This document shows, in pieces, positions 24,328 through 36,744 of a stretch of DNA of 64,000 bases. The stretch spans positions 62,001 to 126,000 of the forward strand of contig JAHEYP010000005.1 of assembly GCA_023251535.1 (NCBI GenBank), given 5' to 3'. Every line of letters starts with the position of its first letter. The first letter of the stretch is position 1. The notes beneath the pieces were generated by a model. It saw nothing but the letters and a program-made list of their open reading frames with translations. It was not told the DNA's origin and searched no databases. Origin of the DNA: Bacteroidota bacterium. GTDB taxonomy: Bacteria > Bacteroidota > Bacteroidia > AKYH767-A > OLB10. A program made the translations under genes and the position numbers.

Positions 24328-25377
24328 CTATTTACTCTTCTTAACCGAAAACGAGAAGGTAGTTCCTTTGCCTACTTCACTTGTAACACTAATATACTGA
24401 TGATGAGCTTCGATAATATGCTTCACGATAGCCAATCCTAGTCCTGTGCCTCCTTGCTCGCGAGAGCGACTTTTGTCGACACGATAAAAACGTTCAAACA
24501 ATCGAGGAAGGTGATGCTTCTCTATTCCTATTCCATTATCTTCAACATCAACAATTATTTTGTCATCTCCATCGGCATAACGAATGACTGTTTGTCCACC
24601 CTCTTTTCCATATTTAATGGAATTCACCATTAGGTTCACCAAAACCTGACGAATCAAATCACGGTCACCAAAAACATATTGTGGTTTATCTAAATCAGCC
24701 TTAAGAACAAGATCAACTTTCTTTTCTTTAGCTTGCAATTCCAAAGACTCAATAACATCCTTTGTTAAATCAAGAATATCGAAAGTACGCATCTCAACGA
24801 TTAACTCACCAGCTTCTAATTTTGATATAGATTCTAAGTCGTCAACCATTGCAATTAATCGGTCGATACTTTTACTTGCCTTATTCAGATAAAGAATGTT
24901 CACATCAGCATCATCAATACCTCCATCAATTAAAGTATGCACATAACCTTGCGCAGAAAAAATTGGAGTTTTTAGTTCATGAGAAACATTACTCAAAAAC
25001 TCACGACGATAAACTTCAACTTGCTTTAACTGATCAATTTCTTCTCGCGACTCGTTACTCCAGTCAACTAGAATTCGATTAATTTCAGATGTAATATCTC
25101 TTTCTTTTTCTTCAAAAGCTCGAATGGGCTCATTCGGATTCTTTAAACGAATGATATGCTTGTAAATTTGATAGAGATTTGAAAATATGTATTTACCATA
25201 CAATACTCTAAATGTCAAACCACAAACAGTAAAAACAATTAAAAACGAAACTAAATAAAAATATCCTGGAGGATCAACTTTGGCGATTGACAACATAACA
25301 AACTCCAATAATGTCAGCACTGCTGCCATCACTATTGAAGTAATTAATGCTATTTGAGTAGGATTGACTCGTTTCAT
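24328..25377 (-). CDS. phoR: Sensor histidine kinase, PhoR-like
   Basis: Two TM helices, H-box SHELKTPIFSAQGY, N/G boxes NLMVNSIKYG, GGTGLGLAIVKHI; paired with phoB in a phosphate locus. Confidence 0.88.
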   Translation of the reverse strand: MKRVNPTQIALITSIVMAAVLTLLEFVMLSIAKVDPPGYFYLVSFLIVFTVCGLTFRVLYGKYIFSNLYQIYKHIIRLKNPNEPIRAFEEKERDITSEINRILVDWSNESREEIDQLKQVEVYRREFLSNVSHELKTPIFSAQGYVHTLIDGGIDDADVNILYLNKASKSIDRLIAMVDDLESISKLEAGELIVEMRTFDILDLTKDVIESLELQAKEKKVDLVLKADLDKPQYVFGDRDLIRQVLVNLMVNSIKYGKEGGQTVIRYADGDDKIIVDVEDNGIGIEKHHLPRLFERFYRVDKSRSREQGGTGLGLAIVKHIIEAHHQYISVTSEVGKGTTFSFSVKKSK

Positions 25378-25421
25378 TTCTAGAATACGAAAATAAGGAA
25401 ATAAATGAAACGTAATCTTAA

Positions 25422-26108
25422 TTACATATCGAACTTGTACCCAATTCCCTTAATAGTTTTAATGGAATCGTCGCCTAGCTTTTCACGAATTTTGCGAATA
25501 TGAACATCGATGGTACGATCACCTACGATAATATCGGTTCCCCATACTCTCGACAATATATCTTCACGCGTAAAAACTTTTCCCGGTTTAGAAGTTAGTA
25601 ATGAAAGTAATTCAAATTCTTTTCTAGGTAATGAAATTGCCTCTTCGCCTCTATACACTAAATAGCTTTCACGATCAATCTTTAGATTTCCGATTTGCAC
25701 CGTTGAAGATGCTACCGGCGCACTTCCATTCGACCTACGTAAAAGAGCCTTTATTCTGCTAATCATGATTCTTGGCTTGATAGGTTTGCTGATATAATCA
25801 TCTGCCCCTACATCAAATCCTGCTAGTTGCGAATACTCTTCGTTACGTGCTGTTAAAAAAGTAATAATTGTATGCTCTAATTCAGGTAAATCACGCATTG
25901 TTCTGCATGCTTCAATACCATCCATTACTGGCATCATAATATCAAGAATTACTAACTGCGGCTTCTCTCGTTTGGCAATATCAACAGCTTCTCTACCATT
26001 CTTAGCTAACAAAACATTGTAGCCTTCTTTCTTCAAATTGTAGTCCATGAACTCCAGAATATCCGGTTCATCATCTACTAACAAAATTTTTATTGTTGAA
26101 TTGTCCAT
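25422..26108 (-). CDS. phoB: OmpR/PhoB-family response regulator
   Basis: Receiver LVDDEPDILEF...LDIMMPVMDG and winged-helix C-term TREDILSRVWGTDIIVGDRTIDVHIRKIREKLGDD. Confidence 0.9.
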   Translation of the reverse strand: MDNSTIKILLVDDEPDILEFMDYNLKKEGYNVLLAKNGREAVDIAKREKPQLVILDIMMPVMDGIEACRTMRDLPELEHTIITFLTARNEEYSQLAGFDVGADDYISKPIKPRIMISRIKALLRRSNGSAPVASSTVQIGNLKIDRESYLVYRGEEAISLPRKEFELLSLLTSKPGKVFTREDILSRVWGTDIIVGDRTIDVHIRKIREKLGDDSIKTIKGIGYKFDM

Positions 26109-26125: not shown

Positions 26126-26172
26126 TCCAAAGATCGATACCGTGTATTACCAAATTGTTAATTGTGGATTAA
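26126..26172 (-). promoter_or_regulatory. Candidate PhoB box array and -7-like element upstream of phoB
   Basis: Minus-strand TTAATCC (26172-26166), TTAACAA (26161-26155), GTAATAC (26150-26144) at 11-bp period; CTTTGGA at 26132-26126. Confidence 0.5.
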
Positions 26173-26275
26173 GCGATTCATATTTTTTCTGAAATCACAA
26201 TAAGAACTTCCGATTTTAAGTGGTACAAAGATACATCGAATAGGATCATATTGGGTTATCATTAGATTAACCTAC

Positions 26276-26333
26276 TTAACATTTTCATAAAGTTACTTTA
26301 ATACTGAATTAGGATTACAATATGTCCTTTGCA
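26276..26333 (+). promoter_or_regulatory. Candidate PhoB box array and -7-like element upstream of the TonB receptor
   Basis: TTAACAT 26276, ATAAAGT 26287, TTAATAC 26298 (11-bp period), CTTTGCA 26327. Confidence 0.55.
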
Positions 26334-26350: not shown

Positions 26351-29161
26351 ATGAAAAAGCACATTATCTTTACCTTAATTATTTGTTTAACAAGTATTTA
26401 CAATTTGTTAGCACAATCGGGAAGTATCGAAGGAATACTGACTGACAGCCAAACTGCAGAAACATTAATTGGCGCCAATGTTATTATCAAAGGTACTACG
26501 TCAGGTTCAGTAACCGATATTGACGGGAAGTACTTAATCTCCAATTTAAAACCTGGCTCTTACTCTTTAATCGTTTCTTATGTTGGTTATACGAACCAAA
26601 CATTTGATGCAATTTCAGTATCTGAAGGCAAAAAAACAACTTTAGACATTAAACTGCAATCAAACGTTAAGCAATTAAAGGAAGCTAATGTTAGTACTAC
26701 ACGCATTACTCATACCGAGAATGCTGTATTAGCAGAAATGCGAAAGGCTGAACAGGTTGTTGTTGGAGTATCAAGTCAACAAATTGGCAAAACACAAGAT
26801 AAAAACGCGACTGAAGTAATCCGACGTTTACCTGGTGTTACAGTGATCGAAGATCGCTTTATCATGATTCGTGGACTAAGCGAGCGTTATAATGCTGTTC
26901 TTTTGAATGATGCATTAGCTCCTAGTGTTGAATCTGATAAAAAAGCTTTCTCATTCGACTTAATCCCTAGTAATATGATAGATCGTATCTTGATTTACAA
27001 ATCAGGAGCACCTGAACTTCCCGGTGAATTTGCTGGAGGTGCGATTAAAATTTACACTAAGAATTTCCCAGATAAAGATTTTATTACTGCAGGATATACC
27101 ATCGGAGTACGATCGGGAACTACCTTCAACGATTTCTATCAATCGGCCGGAAAATCGAACGACTGGATGGGAATCGACAACGGCAGCAGAGACTTGCCTG
27201 ATTGGTTTCCTTCAAGTATTTCAGGATTAAATACTGATCAACAAGTGGCTTTGGCTAAAGATCTACCAAACACATGGATTGCGAAACAAAAATCGGCTCC
27301 AATCGATCAGAAATTCAATTTCGGATTTGCTAAATCATTTTCGATTGGCAAAATTAAAGCTGCGAATATTACGAATATCAATTACTCGACTTCTTACGAA
27401 AATCGCGAGGCTCAAAACTACAACTACAATCAGTATAATATTGAGCAACAAAAAAGCGATACTATCTACTCTTATAACGATAACACTTACTCAAAGAAAA
27501 TCAATTGGAGCATAATGCATAATTGGGCTTTTCAGTTGTCGTCAAAAACAAAAATCGAGTTTAGAAATTTATTTAATCAAACAGGGAATAATAGCACTGC
27601 TATTCGTACTGGCGAAAACTTTGAAGAAGGCAACTTGGTTCGAAATTATGCTTTCCGTTATAACGAGAGAAGTATTTACTCTGGACAACTTTCTGGATCG
27701 CATCACTTAAATCAAGAAAGAACTAAAATCAACTGGAATTTAGGTTATTCACTTACAAGAAGCAAAGAACCTGATTACAGAAGATTACGTACGTTCAACT
27801 CAATCTACGATACAGATACTTCATATGTAGTTCAAATCAACACCACAGCTTCACAACAAGATGCAGGAAGATTTTACTCTAAATTGAATGAAGATATTGG
27901 AATGGCATCAGCAGATTTAGAACAAGATATTTACTCAATTAACGAAGTAAGAAAGATAAAATTAAAAGCAGGATTTTATGCTGAATCAAAAACAAGATCT
28001 TTCAGTGCAAGATGGATGTCGTATAAAAGAGCAAGCTTCGATAATTTCGATTATTCATTACTATACCTACCTGTTGACCAAGTATTCTCTTCTGAAAATA
28101 TCAACGATAGCACAGGATTTAAAATCGACGAAGGAACAAATGCTACTGACAAATACACTGCTGATAATTTCTTAACAGCAGGATACGTAAGTATCAGCTG
28201 GCCAATATCGGATAAGTTAAACGCAAGCGGTGGTGTTCGTGTAGAAAACAACCAACAACATTTAAGTTCTAAAAACAATAACGGAAATAAAATCGAAGTA
28301 GATAATCCTACAACGAAAGTATTACCATCACTTAATGTTTCATATAACTTAACATCGAAATCACTCGTACGTTTGGCATATGCAAGAACGTTAAATCGTC
28401 CTGAATTCAGAGAGCTAGCTCCTTACGCTTATTACGATTTCATCTTCAATAATGTATTGAAAGGGAATACTGAATTAAAGACTCCAGATATCGATAATTT
28501 AGATGCACGTTGGGAGTTTTATCCTGGAATCGGAGAATTAATTTCAGCTGGTGTATTTTACAAATTTTTCACTAATCCAATAGAGCAATACTTCGAACCT
28601 GGTGCAGGATCAGGTGGAACAAGAAATTTCATTTACAATAATGCGCAGAAAGCTACCAGCTACGGAGTAGAACTTGATATCAAGAAATCTCTTGAGCCAA
28701 TCTTTAAAACAGGATTCCTAAGCAAGCTTGCTATTGGAGCGAACACCTCTTTAATAAAAAGCAATGTTGATTTAGGTGATCAAGCAGTTGGACAAAAAAG
28801 CAATCGTCCGATGATGGGACAATCGCCTTACACAATCAATGCAGGCCTGTACTACGCTAACGAAGAAAACGGATTGCAATGCAATTTACTATACAATATT
28901 GTAGGGAAAAGAGTTTATGCAGTTGGAACAGTAGGAACACCTGATGTTTATGAACTTTCAAGAAATTCAATCGACTTCTCTATCTCTAAAAAATTAGGAA
29001 AATTTGTAGAAGTAAAAGCCGGAGCACAAGACATTTTAAACGAAGCATTCCGTTTAAAACAAGACTCAAATGAAGATGGAACTATCAATGGTGCTGATGA
29101 AACAATAATGAGTTACAAACGAGGAAGTTTGTTCTCACTTGGTTTCTCTGTCAAATATTAA
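26351..29161 (+). CDS. TonB-dependent outer membrane receptor with carboxypeptidase-regulatory-like N-terminal domain
   Basis: SGSIEGILTDSQTAETLIGANVIIKGTTSGSVTDIDGKYLI; plug domain ATEVIRRLPGVTVIEDRFIMIRGLSERYNAVLLND; C-term beta-barrel ending FSLGFSVKY. Confidence 0.93.
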   Translation: MKKHIIFTLIICLTSIYNLLAQSGSIEGILTDSQTAETLIGANVIIKGTTSGSVTDIDGKYLISNLKPGSYSLIVSYVGYTNQTFDAISVSEGKKTTLDIKLQSNVKQLKEANVSTTRITHTENAVLAEMRKAEQVVVGVSSQQIGKTQDKNATEVIRRLPGVTVIEDRFIMIRGLSERYNAVLLNDALAPSVESDKKAFSFDLIPSNMIDRILIYKSGAPELPGEFAGGAIKIYTKNFPDKDFITAGYTIGVRSGTTFNDFYQSAGKSNDWMGIDNGSRDLPDWFPSSISGLNTDQQVALAKDLPNTWIAKQKSAPIDQKFNFGFAKSFSIGKIKAANITNINYSTSYENREAQNYNYNQYNIEQQKSDTIYSYNDNTYSKKINWSIMHNWAFQLSSKTKIEFRNLFNQTGNNSTAIRTGENFEEGNLVRNYAFRYNERSIYSGQLSGSHHLNQERTKINWNLGYSLTRSKEPDYRRLRTFNSIYDTDTSYVVQINTTASQQDAGRFYSKLNEDIGMASADLEQDIYSINEVRKIKLKAGFYAESKTRSFSARWMSYKRASFDNFDYSLLYLPVDQVFSSENINDSTGFKIDEGTNATDKYTADNFLTAGYVSISWPISDKLNASGGVRVENNQQHLSSKNNNGNKIEVDNPTTKVLPSLNVSYNLTSKSLVRLAYARTLNRPEFRELAPYAYYDFIFNNVLKGNTELKTPDIDNLDARWEFYPGIGELISAGVFYKFFTNPIEQYFEPGAGSGGTRNFIYNNAQKATSYGVELDIKKSLEPIFKTGFLSKLAIGANTSLIKSNVDLGDQAVGQKSNRPMMGQSPYTINAGLYYANEENGLQCNLLYNIVGKRVYAVGTVGTPDVYELSRNSIDFSISKKLGKFVEVKAGAQDILNEAFRLKQDSNEDGTINGADETIMSYKRGSLFSLGFSVKY

Positions 29162-29215: not shown

Positions 29216-29273
29216 TTAACAATTCGTTTAAGAATCATTAACAATCCTATGATATTGTAATATTAATCTTGCA
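29216..29273 (+). promoter_or_regulatory. Candidate PhoB box array and -7-like element upstream of the lipoprotein gene
   Basis: TTAACAA 29216, TTTAAGA 29227, TTAACAA 29238 (11-bp period), TCTTGCA 29267. Confidence 0.55.
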
Positions 29274-29300: not shown

Positions 29301-30659
29301 ATGAAATCATTTAATTTCAGAAAAACAATTACTGCATTATCTATCGCAGTTATTGCAACTTCCACAGTATTCACAGGATGTAAAAAAGACAGTGAAGACA
29401 CTACTACTCCTACTCAAACTGGACAAGAGATCACAGTTCAAGACAGTATCACTGCAAACACTACTTGGACAGCAAACAACAAATACATTTTAAATGGATT
29501 TGTTTACGTAACTAACGGAGCAACGTTAACAATTGAAGCCGGAACAATCATCAAAGGAGATAAAACCTCTAAAGGAACTTTAATTATCAAACGTGGTGCT
29601 AAAATTATGGCAACAGGAACTGCGTCGAACCCAATTGTATTTACATCTGCACAAGCTAAAGGTTCACGTGCTCCTGGTGATTGGGGTGGTGTTATCGTTT
29701 GCGGTAAAGCACCAGTTAATTTAGCAGGTGGAGAAGGACTAATTGAAGGTGGTCCGGATGCATATTATGGCGGAACAGACGCTGCTGACAACTCAGGAAA
29801 AATTCAATATGTACGTATCGAATTCGCTGGTGTGGCTCTTCAACCAAATCAAGAAATCAACGGCTTAACACTTGGTGGTGTTGGTAACGGAACAACAATT
29901 GATCACGTTCAAGTTTCTTATGGTGGAGATGATGCATTTGAAATGTTCGGAGGAACAGTTAACATGAATCACTTAGTTACTTTTAAAACAACAGATGATG
30001 ATTTAGATACTGACAACGGATTTAGCGGTAAAGTTCAATTCGCAGCAATCTTACGTGATCCAAACATCGCTGACGTTTCAGGATCAAATGCATTCGAATC
30101 AGATAACGATGCTTCTGGAACAACTGCAACGCCTTATACAAATCCGGTATTTTGCAATATCAGCGTATTCGGACCAAAATCAGATACTGCTAATGCTGTA
30201 AACGGAAACTTTAAACGTGGTGCTCATATCCGCAGAAGCTCAAAAGCTTGCATTTATAATTCACTTATCAGCGGTTTCCCTATCGGATTACTAGTTGACG
30301 GTGCAAATGCGGAATCAAATGCAAGTAATGATGCATTACAAATCAGAAATACTATCATCTCAGGTTGCAACACTCCATTAGCTGTTGCCTCAGGAAGCAC
30401 TTTCGATATCACAACTTGGTTCAACAATGCAGCTTATGGCAATTCAATCCAGTATTCAAACTCGAACTTGGCGAACGATCCTTATAACTTAACAAGCCCT
30501 GATTTCTTACCAAAAACGGGTTCTCCACTACTTTCTGGAGCTAATTTTAGCGCTTCGAACCTATCTGGATTAACAATTACAACATATAGAGGTGCTTTCA
30601 GCACTACTAACTGGACTTCAGGATGGGCAAATTTTGACCCACAAAACACTGACTATTAA
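29301..30659 (+). CDS. Lipoprotein with right-handed beta-helix-like repeats, function unknown
   Basis: Lipobox TVFTGC; LTIEAGTIIKGDKTSKGTLIIKRGAKIMATGTASNPIVFTSAQAKGSRAPGDWGGVIVCGKAPVN; between a TonB receptor and a phosphate-type porin. Confidence 0.85.
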   Translation: MKSFNFRKTITALSIAVIATSTVFTGCKKDSEDTTTPTQTGQEITVQDSITANTTWTANNKYILNGFVYVTNGATLTIEAGTIIKGDKTSKGTLIIKRGAKIMATGTASNPIVFTSAQAKGSRAPGDWGGVIVCGKAPVNLAGGEGLIEGGPDAYYGGTDAADNSGKIQYVRIEFAGVALQPNQEINGLTLGGVGNGTTIDHVQVSYGGDDAFEMFGGTVNMNHLVTFKTTDDDLDTDNGFSGKVQFAAILRDPNIADVSGSNAFESDNDASGTTATPYTNPVFCNISVFGPKSDTANAVNGNFKRGAHIRRSSKACIYNSLISGFPIGLLVDGANAESNASNDALQIRNTIISGCNTPLAVASGSTFDITTWFNNAAYGNSIQYSNSNLANDPYNLTSPDFLPKTGSPLLSGANFSASNLSGLTITTYRGAFSTTNWTSGWANFDPQNTDY

Positions 30660-30684: not shown

Positions 30685-30713
30685 GGCCTCCCAACTAGGG
30701 AGGCCTTTTTTTT
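30685..30713 (+). terminator. Rho-independent terminator
   Basis: GGCCTCCC-AACTA-GGGAGGCC followed by TTTTTTTT. Confidence 0.9.
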
Positions 30714-30717
30714 GCAC

Positions 30718-30775
30718 TTAACATTAACTTAACATTGGCATAAAATACCCTTAACAATTTCTTAATCGCTTTGCA
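30718..30775 (+). promoter_or_regulatory. Candidate PhoB box array and -7-like element upstream of the porin-pst operon
   Basis: TTAACAT 30718, TTAACAT 30729, ATAAAAT 30740, TTAACAA 30751, TTAATCG 30762: five heptamers at exact 11-bp period; CTTTGCA 30769. Confidence 0.65.
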
Positions 30776-30794
30776 GTGGAAAAAAGCGACAATA

Positions 30795-32255
30795 ATGCAC
30801 AAATCAATCCTAACCTCAGCCAAAGTAATCCTTGTATTCGTGGCTGCCATGTTCACGCTGAATGCGCAAGCTCAGCAGACAGACTCTACTCAAACAGACA
30901 CTACTGTTGTAGAAGAGTCATCAGAAGCAACTAGTTCATTTTCAACATTCGAACTAGAACCTGAAGACACTACCCAACAAACAATTGGAAAGATGTACAA
31001 CGACATCGAATTCCTGAAGAGATTCCAGATTTCAGGATATTTCCAAGGACAGTTTCAATGGGCTGACTCATCAGGAATAGCTTCAGCGTCAGGTGGTAAT
31101 TTTAGCCCAGGGATTGACAAACGTTTCAGTGTTAGACGTGGTCGTTTAAAAGTTACTTACGATAAATATTTCAGCAAAGTCGTTTTCCAAACCGACATGA
31201 CCGAAAGAGGTCTTCGTGTAGTTGAAGCTTATGCAAGTATTACTGAAGAAAAATTCTATTGGGCAACATTAACGGCAGGTATTTTCAACCGACCGTTTGG
31301 ATATGAAATCGAATACACTTCGAATATGAGAGAGGCCCCTGAAAGAGGTCGCATGTCGGGAAATTTATTCCCAAATGAACGAGATTTAGGAGCAAAAGTC
31401 ACCATTCAAGGTCCGAAATTCGGAATCTGGAATTGGCTAAAATTAGATGTTGCAATGGTAACGGGAGTTGGTTCAGAAGATGCAAACGTTGGTATTTCTG
31501 ACTATGACAAAAGAAAAGATTTAATCACTCACTTAACGGTAAACCGTGCTAACAGAAACGAAGATATTAAATACGGATTTGGAGTATCATATTATGATGG
31601 TGGTGTGATTTTCAATATCGACTCAACAAAAAAAGTGGCATCATATGTGCTTAACGAAGATAGCGCAGGTATAAAAACATTCCATGTAGACTCTGTAGCT
31701 CCTGATAGTTATGCACCAAGAAAATATTACGGCATCGATGCTCAATTCCAAAAAGACTTTAAATGGGGGATTTTCACTTTGAAAGCTGAATATATTCAAG
31801 GTACTCATTCAAGCCAAGGTTCTACAACAAAAGCATACCAATCTAAACCAACTGCATCAAATCCTGTGTACATCAGAAAATTCAATGGAGCGTACTTTGA
31901 ATTAGCACAAAACTTTAACCGACCAACTTCAGAAAACAAATTCTTGAATACTATTTACTCCATTATCCCAGGACAAATAGTTGTTAAATACGACTGGTAT
32001 GACCCAAATACAGAAGTTAAAGGAGATGAAATCGGAAAGAATGTAACATCAGGAGCCACAGGAAGAAAAACTACTAATGCTACCGATTTAAGATATGACA
32101 CCTTCGGATTTGGAGTAGCATACTTCTTAAGTAATAATGCAAAAGTGCTTGCTTATTATGACATGGTTACGAATGAAACATCTAAAAACTTAAGCGGATA
32201 CACGCAAGATTTAAAAGACAATGTATTCACATTACGTCTTCAATATAAATTCTAA
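30795..32255 (+). CDS. Phosphate-selective porin O/P-like outer membrane protein
   Basis: Signal peptide, RFQISGYFQGQFQWAD...RFSVRRGRLKVTYDKYFSKVVFQTDMTERGLRVVEAYASI; C-terminal aromatic LRLQYKF. Confidence 0.87.
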   Translation: MHKSILTSAKVILVFVAAMFTLNAQAQQTDSTQTDTTVVEESSEATSSFSTFELEPEDTTQQTIGKMYNDIEFLKRFQISGYFQGQFQWADSSGIASASGGNFSPGIDKRFSVRRGRLKVTYDKYFSKVVFQTDMTERGLRVVEAYASITEEKFYWATLTAGIFNRPFGYEIEYTSNMREAPERGRMSGNLFPNERDLGAKVTIQGPKFGIWNWLKLDVAMVTGVGSEDANVGISDYDKRKDLITHLTVNRANRNEDIKYGFGVSYYDGGVIFNIDSTKKVASYVLNEDSAGIKTFHVDSVAPDSYAPRKYYGIDAQFQKDFKWGIFTLKAEYIQGTHSSQGSTTKAYQSKPTASNPVYIRKFNGAYFELAQNFNRPTSENKFLNTIYSIIPGQIVVKYDWYDPNTEVKGDEIGKNVTSGATGRKTTNATDLRYDTFGFGVAYFLSNNAKVLAYYDMVTNETSKNLSGYTQDLKDNVFTLRLQYKF

Positions 32256-32274
32256 AAAATCAAATAATACAGAC

Positions 32275-33105
32275 ATGAAAAATATGTTAAATAAAATTCT
32301 TGTTGCCTTGTTAGTTTTATCAAGCAACCTTTCATTCGCTCAAAAAATTGTTATTAAAGGAAGTGACACTGTACTACCTTTAAGTCAAAAAGAAGCAGAA
32401 CAATACATGAAAACCAACAAAAGCGTAAACATTAGCGTTGTTGGTGGTGGATCAGGTGTTGGTATTGCTGCACTTATCGATGGAAATACAAACATCGCAA
32501 TGTCATCACGTCCAATCAAAATGGATGAGAAAATTAAATTACAAGATGCAGGAAGAACTTATAAAGAAGTAAAAGTTGCTTTTGACGCATTAAGTATTAT
32601 CGTTAACCCTTCAAACAAAGTATCTCAATTAACGAGAGAGCAAATTGAAGGAATCTTTACTGGTAAAATTAAAAACTGGAAAGAAGTTGGTGGCGACGAT
32701 TTAAAAATTGTAGCTTATGCAAGAGAGACTTCTTCAGGAACTTATGAGTTCTTCAAAGAACACCTATTAAATAGAAAGAATTATGCTGCATCTTGCCTTA
32801 ATATGCCTGCATCAGGAGCGGTAATCCAATCTGTAAGTCAAACTAAAGGTGCTATCGGATATGTAGGACTAGCTTATGTTGACAAATCAATTAAGACATT
32901 AGGAGTTTCAATTGACAAAGGGAAAACATTTGTAAAACCTTCGAAAGAAACAGCAAAAAACAAAACTTACCCTGTAGTTCGTCCTTTGTTCTTCTACTAC
33001 CCAGTTAAAACTGAAGCATTAGTTAAGCCATTTATTGATTACGTAACTTCTGCGGTAGGACAAAAAATCGTTGACCAAATCGGCTACGTTACATTAGATA
33101 AATAG
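32275..33105 (+). CDS. pstS: Phosphate ABC transporter substrate-binding protein
   Basis: VIKGSDTVLPLSQKEAEQYM, VGGGSGVGIAALIDG, IFTGKIKNWKEVGG, ARETSSGTYEFF; start at MKNMLNK. Confidence 0.95.
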   Translation: MKNMLNKILVALLVLSSNLSFAQKIVIKGSDTVLPLSQKEAEQYMKTNKSVNISVVGGGSGVGIAALIDGNTNIAMSSRPIKMDEKIKLQDAGRTYKEVKVAFDALSIIVNPSNKVSQLTREQIEGIFTGKIKNWKEVGGDDLKIVAYARETSSGTYEFFKEHLLNRKNYAASCLNMPASGAVIQSVSQTKGAIGYVGLAYVDKSIKTLGVSIDKGKTFVKPSKETAKNKTYPVVRPLFFYYPVKTEALVKPFIDYVTSAVGQKIVDQIGYVTLDK

Positions 33106-33176: not shown

Positions 33177-34373
33177 GTGATTAAGAAATTCATCAACAAA
33201 CTTATTGAAGGCATTTTAATGCTAAGCAGTACCGTTACTACATTAACGGTACTGCTCATTATTGTCTTTCTTTTCAGCGAAGGAATTTCAGTTTTTAAAG
33301 AATCTCCACTTGAAGGTGATAATATCATAGTACTAAATCACCAAAACAAAGTAAGTCATATCTCATCCACTGATATCAAAGATATCTTTGATCAGGAAAT
33401 TACTAATTGGAAGTCTATTGGAGGCACCGACGACTCCATTATTCTATTCACTTTCAATGATATTGGCAATTACTTTTCAGAAGAAGAACTTGGACCGGAG
33501 TTTGAATACTTGCCTGCTAAAATGGATTCATTAATTGAGGCAGAACATGGAATGATAGCTGTATTTTCAAATAAGTACTTATCTAAAAACCATCATTCCA
33601 AAGTTATTCAGGCCGACAACGTAAATCCTTATACTTTTATCACAGGTAAGGAGTGGTTTCCTACGGCTAACCCTGCCGTTCAACTAGGTGTTCTCCCGTT
33701 AATCTTGGGAACACTTTATGTTTCTTTCGTTGCAATATTATTTGCATTACCTGTAGGATTAGCAACAGCTATTTACATGGCTGAAGTTGCTGATGAGAAA
33801 ACAAGAAGAATATTTAAGCCGGTAATTGAATTATTAGCGGGTATCCCTTCCGTAGTTTATGGATTCTTCGGATTAATAGTTATTGTTCCTTTGATTCAAA
33901 GCACTTTCAATTTACCTGTAGGTGAAACAGGACTAGCGGGAAGTATTATCCTTGGGATAATGGCTCTTCCTACTATCATCACTGTTTCGGAAGATGCTTT
34001 GCGCAACACGCCACGATCAATGAAGGAAGCTAGTCTTGCGCTAGGAGCAACAAAATGGCAAACAATAGTTCGCATAGTAATTCCTTATTCATACTCTGGA
34101 ATTTCTGCAGCTGCAATACTTGGTATCGGTAGAGCGATTGGAGAAACAATGGCCGTACTTATGGTTACCGGTAATGCCGCTGTTATACCGCATACATTAC
34201 TTGAACCAGTGAGAACTATTCCTGCAACTATTGCAGCAGAATTAGGAGAAGCACCGGCTAATGGAATTCATTACAAAGCTTTATTTGCTTTAGGATGTAT
34301 TCTATTCTTAATAACATTAACCATTAATCTTTGGGTTGAATTTAGCTCGAAGAAACGTCGTTTCGGTAAATAA
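33177..34373 (+). CDS. pstC: Phosphate ABC transporter permease PstC with extended periplasmic loop (GTG start)
   Basis: C-terminal permease (LGVLPLILGTLYVSFVAILFALPVGLATAIYMAEVA..., [22 protein letters not shown]); about 100-residue PstS-like insert after TM1. Confidence 0.92.
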   Translation: MIKKFINKLIEGILMLSSTVTTLTVLLIIVFLFSEGISVFKESPLEGDNIIVLNHQNKVSHISSTDIKDIFDQEITNWKSIGGTDDSIILFTFNDIGNYFSEEELGPEFEYLPAKMDSLIEAEHGMIAVFSNKYLSKNHHSKVIQADNVNPYTFITGKEWFPTANPAVQLGVLPLILGTLYVSFVAILFALPVGLATAIYMAEVADEKTRRIFKPVIELLAGIPSVVYGFFGLIVIVPLIQSTFNLPVGETGLAGSIILGIMALPTIITVSEDALRNTPRSMKEASLALGATKWQTIVRIVIPYSYSGISAAAILGIGRAIGETMAVLMVTGNAAVIPHTLLEPVRTIPATIAAELGEAPANGIHYKALFALGCILFLITLTINLWVEFSSKKRRFGK

Positions 34374-34376
34374 CAA

Positions 34377-35249
34377 ATGGAAAAACCTGATATCTCACGT
34401 AAGCGGCTAGCCGAAGCAATAGCATTCTGGATTTTCAGATTGCTATCATTAGGTGTAATGGGAATTTTATTTTCCATCCTCGGATTTATTCTTTACAAAG
34501 GAATTCATGTAGTAAACTGGGATTTCATCACCAAAATGCCGGAAGATGGTATGACAAAAGGTGGAATTTATCCTGCTATCATTGGAACACTTTGCCTGAT
34601 TGCCGGCAGCATGATATTTGCATTCCCTATCGGGGTGATGTCGGGGATTTATATTAACGAGTACACCAAAGATAGTTGGTACCGTCGCTTCGTTCAATTA
34701 ATGACGGCCAATCTCGCGGGTATCCCTTCCATCGTATTTGGTTTATTCGGAATGTCGCTGTTTGTAAACAAACTCGGTTTCGGAGATTCAATTATTGCAG
34801 GATCTTTAACATTAGGATTACTTGCATTGCCTGTTATTATTCGCACTACAGAAGAAGCACTCAAATCAGTTGATGATTCATACCGTCATGCCAGCTTAGC
34901 CCTTGGCGCTACTAAATTGCAAACTATTAGCCGGGTAACTTTACCTGTTGCATTACCGAATATTATCACAGGATTTATTCTAAGTATTGGAAGGGTGTCA
35001 GGTGAAACTGCACCAATCTTATTCACCGTTGCAGCATATTTCCTTCCAAAACTTCCAACAAGTATTCACGATCAAGTAATGGCCTTGCCCTACCACTTAT
35101 ATGTTATTTCTACGAGTGGAACCAACATTAATGAGTCTAGAGGAATGGCTTATGGAACCGCGGTAGTTTTAATATTGATTGTTCTTATTCTGAACCTCAT
35201 CGCCAATGCGGTTCGTAGATATCTTGGCAAAAAGTACAAAACAAATTAA
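34377..35249 (+). CDS. pstA: Phosphate ABC transporter permease PstA
   Basis: [59 protein letters not shown]. Confidence 0.95.
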
Positions 35250-35259
35250 GCATCATAAC

Positions 35260-36012
35260 ATGTTTAAGATAGAGAGTAAAGATGTTCATCTTCATTATGG
35301 CGCCTTTCATGCATTGAAAGGCATCAATATGTCGATCGAAAAAAATACGGTAACTGCGTTAATCGGACCTTCTGGTTGCGGTAAGTCTACATTCCTTCGC
35401 TTATTCAATAGGATGAATGATCTTATTGATGATATTAAGATTGAAGGCCAATGCTTACTCGACGGAAAAGATATCTATAGCAAAGATGTTAAAATCGATG
35501 ATTTAAGAAAGCGCGTAGGAATGGTTTTCCAAAAACCCAACCCATTCCCGAAAACTATTTTCGAAAATGTTGCTTACGGTCTCCGTGTAAACGGAATCAC
35601 TCATAAGTCTTTTATTGAAGAACGCGTTGAACGTTCATTGAAACAGGCTGCACTTTGGGATGAAGTAAAAGATAAATTGAAGAAGTCGGCAATGGCATTA
35701 TCTGGTGGACAGCAACAACGTTTATGTATTGCAAGAGCGTTGGCTATTGAGCCATCTGTATTGCTAATGGATGAACCAGCTTCAGCATTAGACCCGATTT
35801 CTACTGCTAAAATTGAGGAATTGATTTATGAATTAAAGAGTGACTTTACTATTATAATTGTAACTCACAATATGCAACAGGCAGGTCGTATTAGCGATAC
35901 TACCGCATTCTTTTACCTTGGCGAATTAGTTGAAATCGACAGCACTAAAAAGATCTTCACTAATCCTAATGACACTCGAACACAGAACTATATTACAGGT
36001 CGTTTTGGTTGA
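35260..36012 (+). CDS. pstB: Phosphate ABC transporter ATP-binding protein PstB
   Basis: [59 protein letters not shown]; start at MFKIES. Confidence 0.97.
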
Positions 36013-36063: not shown

Positions 36064-36744
36064 ATGACACACCTCGATAGTGAATTAAAACAATTAAGAA
36101 CGGACTTACTTGACATGTTCGAATTGGTTTTATCACAACTAGATAAATCAAAACAATCATTAATCAACCTCGACAAAGATTTAGCACGCGAGGTATTGGT
36201 GAATGAGAAAAGAGTAAATAGCTACGAGCTGCAAATCGATCGCGATTGCGAAAATATTTTAGCGCTTTTCAACCCCGTTGCTGTTGACTTAAGATTCCTC
36301 TTGGCAGTTCTTAAAATAAACTCTAACCTCGAACGTGTTGGCGATATTGCTGAAAGTGTTTGCCAGTTTGTAATGAACTTCAAACTTGAACCGGAGAAAA
36401 AATTACTTGAAGCTTCTCGCCTTCTTGAAATGTTCGATGTAAGTAAGGAAATCCTTAAAACTGTAAAAGACGCATTCGAACATGAAGACACAAAACTTGC
36501 TAGAAGTGTTTTCACTCAAGATGAAACGCTCGACGAGATCAACATCAACGCACACACTATTATTGCTGATTACATTTTAAATAATAACGACCGAATCAAC
36601 CAGAGTTTGTATACTTTAAGTATGATTCGAAAATTAGAAAGAGTCGGTGATCAATGTAAAAATATCGCTGAAGAAATTATCTTCTACATCGAAGCGAAAG
36701 TTTTAAAGCATAAGTCGTTTCAGCAGAAGCAAGAAACCAAATAA
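36064..36744 (+). CDS. phoU: Phosphate signalling complex protein PhoU
   Basis: Two PhoU three-helix repeats, LRFLLAVLKINSNLERVGDIAE, KLERVGDQCKNIAEEIIFYIEAK. Confidence 0.95.
   Translation: MTHLDSELKQLRTDLLDMFELVLSQLDKSKQSLINLDKDLAREVLVNEKRVNSYELQIDRDCENILALFNPVAVDLRFLLAVLKINSNLERVGDIAESVCQFVMNFKLEPEKKLLEASRLLEMFDVSKEILKTVKDAFEHEDTKLARSVFTQDETLDEININAHTIIADYILNNNDRINQSLYTLSMIRKLERVGDQCKNIAEEIIFYIEAKVLKHKSFQQKQETK

Follow-up and report, generated by a model that had tools for sequence, protein, structure and literature searches.

The locus considered here raises the question of whether an 11-bp-periodic array of heptamers, found ahead of a porin–pst operon in a Bacteroidota genome, is an operator for the phosphate regulator PhoB (i.e., a Pho box) and, if so, which other genes share it. 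Promoters and regulators of Bacteroidota are poorly mapped, and PhoB has been studied in B. fragilis, where it binds the pstC promoter by EMSA with the motif not given (PMC3547664), and in F. johnsoniae, in a paper from which the term Pho box is absent (PMC8115612). No published Bacteroidota Pho box for pst or for the phoBR cluster was found among open-access papers. The original prediction, made on the 64,000-nt stretch of DNA analyzed here (the “window”), described five heptamers, 11 bp apart, between the previous terminator and the porin–pst genes and proposed them as a candidate Bacteroidota Pho box. The features immediately at issue are these (window positions):

30685..30713, plus strand: intrinsic terminator of the preceding lipoprotein gene, GGCCTCCCAACTAGGGAGGCC-T8, with an 8-bp stem at 30685-30705
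30718..30768, plus strand: predicted PhoB operator array of five heptamers, one per 11 bp
30766..30775, plus strand: weak -7 element TCGCTTTG within TCGCTTTGCA (consensus TAnnTTTG; PMC9723704)
30795..32255, plus strand: porin O/P-like protein of the outer membrane, encoded by the leading gene of the operon

The predicted words and coordinates proved exact (TTAACAT at 30718, TTAACAT at 30729, ATAAAAT at 30740, TTAACAA at 30751, and TTAATCG at 30762), as did the placement of these tandem direct repeats between the terminator and the porin ATG at 30795 (the preferred start; the other candidate, TTG 30771, overlaps the -7 element). The first two heptamers form a perfect repeat; Tandem Repeats Finder, run independently, recovered a period-11 repeat covering only these two words, which marks words 3 and 5 as degenerate. 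Against the consensus TTAACAT the five words score 29/35, a value reached in none of 300 third-order Markov shuffles of the window (mean maximum 22.6, top 27), and at periods 7–24 other than 11 the best five-word score in the real window is ≤25. This consensus was taken from the array itself, which makes the shuffle test descriptive and leaves the promoters of relatives as the source of unbiased evidence.

We therefore compared the promoters of porin homologues taken from 29 genomes and found the same array in many of these promoters (e.g., TTAACATTAAATTAATATTGGAGTAACCTGACGTTAACACTATCTTAATCTATTTGCA). Across 21 porin promoters from outside the genus, the mean four-word score was 19.0 at period 11 and 15.1–16.1 at the remaining periods between 7 and 23, except for period 22, a multiple of 11, at 17.6. 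Base autocorrelation, which involves no assumed word, peaked in orthologous promoters outside the genus only at 11 (+0.084) and 22 (+0.072). Within the same family and the same order, orthologous porin promoters show the period-11 footprint under both shuffle and other-period controls. A sigma-70-like match (TTAACA-17-TAAAAT, 10/12) does overlap the window array, which might then be such a promoter, or else a chance or low-complexity repeat beside a terminator; yet no shuffle attained the array score, the -7 box of the Bacteroidota sigma factor is TAnnTTTG (PMC9723704), and the array is kept across families while its flanks differ. The comparative data contradict this explanation, which we regard as extremely improbable.

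The array also keeps a constant register with the core promoter. Flavobacterial promoters place TAnnTTTG at -12 to -5 (PMC9723704), and before the porin–pst operon the TTTG begins 52 bp past the array start, i.e., at phase 8 modulo 11. The same phase recurs in 34 of 37 array promoters, even though TTTG lies outside the weight matrix with which the arrays were found (described below), and the number of units varies by whole steps, with start-to-TTTG distances of 41, 52, 63, and 74 bp. From the end of the fourth porin–pst heptamer to the -7 box is 8 bp; in E. coli, ~10 bp separate the Pho box from the -10 (PMC1906773). That TCGCTTTG is weak is as expected for an activator-dependent promoter, from which transcription would start near 30778.

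If PhoB is the activator, its genes are close at hand, as the window holds a complete phosphate cluster, with phoR and phoB on the minus strand (24328-26108) and the transport genes on the plus strand:

24328..25377, minus strand: PhoR/PnpS-like sensor histidine kinase
25422..26108, minus strand: PhoB response regulator, its winged helix closest to the E. coli PhoB DNA-binding domain (1gxp)
26351..29161, plus strand: TonB-dependent receptor (PF07715, PF13715, PF14905)
29301..30659, plus strand: secreted lipoprotein, like the F. johnsoniae FII lipoprotein by position and partner (synteny with Fjoh_0545/0546)
32257..33105, plus strand: pstS (TIGR02136), following the porin
33177..34373, plus strand: pstC (TIGR02138)
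34377..35249, plus strand: pstA (TIGR00974)
35206..36012, plus strand: pstB (TIGR00972)
36064..36744, plus strand: phoU (TIGR02135)

The window porin has no direct Pfam match, and PF07396 (Porin_O_P, phosphate-selective porin O and P) is matched by 4 of 17 aligned members of its family (best E 6.9e-7); profile searches with the porin and with the lipoprotein found no solved structure. In PstC (33177-34373), residues ~48–136, between the first membrane helix and the permease domain, weakly resemble PstS-type phosphate-binding proteins (PF12849, E 5e-4; TIGR02136, E 1e-5). The regulators form a cognate PhoB–PhoR pair: the best NCBIfam and PDB matches of the response regulator are PhoB, with PhoB models scoring highest although its 215 bits fall below the curated NCBIfam PhoB cut-off of 296, and its recognition helix, DRTIDVHIRK, is nearly that of E. 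coli PhoB (DRTVDVHIRR).

In gene order and Pfam domains, on which the comparison was made, the window resembles the PUSIV (phoBR) cluster of F. johnsoniae, where phoR–phoB likewise stand beside a TonB receptor and a lipoprotein. Phosphate depletion there raised the phoBR-linked TonB receptor (log2 8.0), the lipoprotein (9.9), phoB (3.1), and plcP (8.6), and left the OprP-like porin beside phoR uninduced (log2 -1.3, p 0.25; PMC8115612). By analogy with this cluster, the porin–pst operon may be induced at low phosphate, with the difference that in F. johnsoniae OprP adjoins phoR; the same study describes plant-associated strains without pst (PMC8115612).

How specific the array is to such genes cannot be read from raw counts. 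Across the genome, TTAACA-N5-TTAACA with one mismatch occurs 58 times vs. 71 for a reversed-pattern control and a loose three-word pattern 310 vs. 425 times (no enrichment in either case), and a four-word pattern reaches 29 vs. 27. With counts at control level, ranking by weight matrix and gene position was needed. The matrix was trained on 14 arrays from outside the genus (porin promoters of relatives), is informative at C5 and at all seven heptamer positions, and served to score 629 gene starts across 859 kb of the organism's own genome—a sample of 40 stretches, some picked for pattern matches, which if anything adds competition. The porin–pst array ranked first of 629 at 28.5 bits and was the best-scoring of the strong four-word matches found genome-wide. 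Beyond what had been predicted, the window holds three more period-11 arrays, each before a leader of the Pho cluster, alongside one further pair of words:

26144..26183, minus strand: array before phoB, 12.9 bits, with TTTG in phase at 26131-26128
26256..26273, plus strand: TTATCAT and TTAACCT as a pair at 11-bp spacing, ahead of the next array and not in its register
26276..26315, plus strand: array before the TonB receptor (TTAACAT, ATAAAGT, TTAATAC, TTAGGAT), 16.6 bits, with TTTGCA in phase at 26328
29216..29266, plus strand: array before the lipoprotein (TTAACAA, TTTAAGA, TTAACAA, ATGATAT, ATATTAA), 13.9 bits, with CTTGCA at the promoter phase

The four cluster leaders thus rank 1 (porin–pst), 4 (TonB receptor), 6 (lipoprotein), and 8 (phoB) of 629, with a chance of 1e-8 that all four fall in the top 8 and, as training on porin promoters makes the porin rank (and not the other three) partly circular, of 9e-7 for the three without it. 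The original prediction had named equal frequency upstream of unrelated genes as the scan outcome that would count against it; the scan did not yield that outcome, and the array is positioned specifically upstream of phosphate-regulon genes. Together with its conservation in relatives, this ranking supports the candidate Pho box, with binding by PhoB as its predicted consequence. The array before phoB points to probable autoregulation. Third in rank stands an operon outside the window:

L158:15231-17209 (contig C13, ~35-37 kb): PlcP-like metallophosphoesterase followed by a glycosyltransferase, in one operon, with the array ~170 bp upstream

These two genes are the known lipid-remodeling pair of phosphate starvation (PMC4796936), and the operon likely serves lipid remodeling under phosphate limitation. 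Matches before repeated 505-aa secreted propeller genes (C11, C14, C45) were taken as false positives, because they lack the promoter element and apparently coincide with the 3′ end of a repeated sequence ahead of the genes. Several such genes, similar to one another and bearing a type IX tail, occur in the genome (L123:8689, L123:11256; L170; L182), and before each lies an almost identical short AT-rich sequence with the look of a weak array.

The additional arrays, too, are conserved. TonB-receptor orthologues have a mean of 16.7 bits with an 11-bp period and of ≤1.7 with any other period tested, and the mean for paralogous TonB receptors, which carry no array, is -3.6 bits; among 67 lipoprotein orthologues (class-wide and named genomes), 24 reach 12 bits at period 11 and at most two do so at any non-multiple period; and the phoB promoters of relatives also carry the array. 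These data bear on the suggestion that the periodicity reflects phased A/T tracts that bend the promoter in the manner of an UP element rather than a specific operator. The words are AT-rich, as promoter regions are, and 11 bp is near one helical turn; but the near-helical periods 10 and 12 yield nothing (no gene start of the 629 exceeds 14 bits at either), unrelated and paralogous promoters lack the array, and the matrix carries information at C5 and throughout the heptamer, all of which makes bending a very unlikely account.

A protein other than PhoB is the more substantial concern, since tandem 11-bp repeats are a feature shared by regulators of the OmpR family, of which the genome encodes five. 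The second-strongest array in the genome lies beside another of these:

Contig C54, ~140077 (L146:1-1352): strong array of TTAAC words scoring 22.7 bits, TCTTTGCA in phase, flanked on one side by a divergent pair encoding a histidine kinase and an RprY-like regulator and on the other by a secreted two-component-propeller protein

This array, next to the divergent kinase gene, may be a PhoB target or the site of that other regulator, and a paralogous regulator might accordingly recognize similar DNA. A related motif, that of Riemerella anatipestifer PhoP, is moreover noted as ArcA-like (PMC9603813). Set against these points, the arrays cluster on phoBR, pst, the phoBR-linked TonB receptor and lipoprotein, and plcP, phoB has an array of its own, and the E. 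coli PhoB-like helix (DVHIRK) is kept only by the window's PhoB among the five regulators. We therefore judge it unlikely that an RprY-like or other OmpR-family protein, instead of PhoB, is what binds the porin–pst array.

An operator for PhoB would be one of the textbook kind with a lineage-specific word. As in E. coli, the units are tandem 11-bp direct repeats (7 conserved and 4 less conserved positions), they lie upstream of pst and phoB and just upstream of the core promoter, and the regulator is of the same family and has almost the same recognition helix. The differences are in the word (CTGTCAT there, TTAACAT here), in the core element (-10 there, the Bacteroidota -7 TTTG here), and in number, the basic E. 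coli box having two units and the Bacteroidota arrays four to seven. B. subtilis PhoP boxes consist of TTAACA-type hexamers at ~11-bp spacing, at a Gram-positive sigma-A promoter. They share the 11-bp unit structure, and the Pho-box word varies by lineage (reviewed in PMC4415409). The departure from CTGTCAT, anticipated in the original prediction, is real, yet the consensus is close to known sites elsewhere. The box of cyanobacterial SphR (PhoB) has at least three tandem repeats of 8 bp with a 3-bp linker and the consensus CTTAACCT (PMC1906773), i.e., the same 11-bp period and a TTAAC core, though in another phylum and at another promoter type. Within the phylum (Flavobacteriales), the Riemerella study gives a DAP-seq motif with the core TTTAACA (583 peaks) and an EMSA on a 35-nt site before the regulator's own operon; there the protein is named PhoP, and the text consulted describes neither an 11-bp array nor a link to pst (PMC9603813). 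Period and word both have precedents, then, and what is added here is the Bacteroidota pst array, its phase lock to the promoter, and its distribution. CTGTCAT would be one version of the PhoB word, the TTAAC type being common to the window and to SphR.

On the combined evidence, the porin–pst array is very probably a PhoB activator-binding operator (a Pho box array) of porin–pstSCAB–phoU. When phosphate is scarce, PhoR would phosphorylate PhoB, whose dimers, to judge from the E. coli PhoB–DNA complex, would bind head-to-tail on the tandem 11-bp units along one face of the DNA. There PhoB would occupy the usual place of the -33 element and bring RNA polymerase to TCGCTTTG, the weak -7 element in phase with the array, with the proposed start leaving a short leader before ATG 30795. 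The same regulator would act on phoB itself, the TonB receptor, and the lipoprotein via their weaker arrays.

Whether the model extends to the phylum is a broader claim, in which we place qualified confidence: a Bacteroidota-wide PhoB operator of variable 11-bp TTAAC units, added in whole turns and helically locked to the -7 TTTG, that controls pst, phoB, the phosphate TonB receptor–lipoprotein pair, and lipid-remodeling genes. In a phylum sample of pstS promoters, a score of 12 bits is attained by five with period 11 and by none with a period that is not a multiple of 11. Most promoters of that sample, in which one family is dominant, stay under this score at period 11, and in distant relatives low scores are frequent among both lipoprotein and pstS promoters. 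In one family of the same phylum (f72), each genome encodes between two and four pstS-like genes, frequently side by side, with the array absent before those examined (loci include L300, L304, L306, L307, L309, L310, L312, and L313). If the phylum-wide operator holds, the Pho regulon of uncultured Bacteroidota would be readable from DNA alone, as the matrix and the geometry—11-bp units locked to TTTG—would predict phosphate-regulon genes in cultured and uncultured members alike, unknown TonB receptor–lipoprotein pairs included. The lipoprotein family of the window (further loci L094, L096, L098, L100, and L101) occurs in 127 of 147 genomes of the class, with a TonB receptor adjoining in nearly all named loci, and at times takes the form of long ORFs (~1260–1290 aa) that contain two copies.
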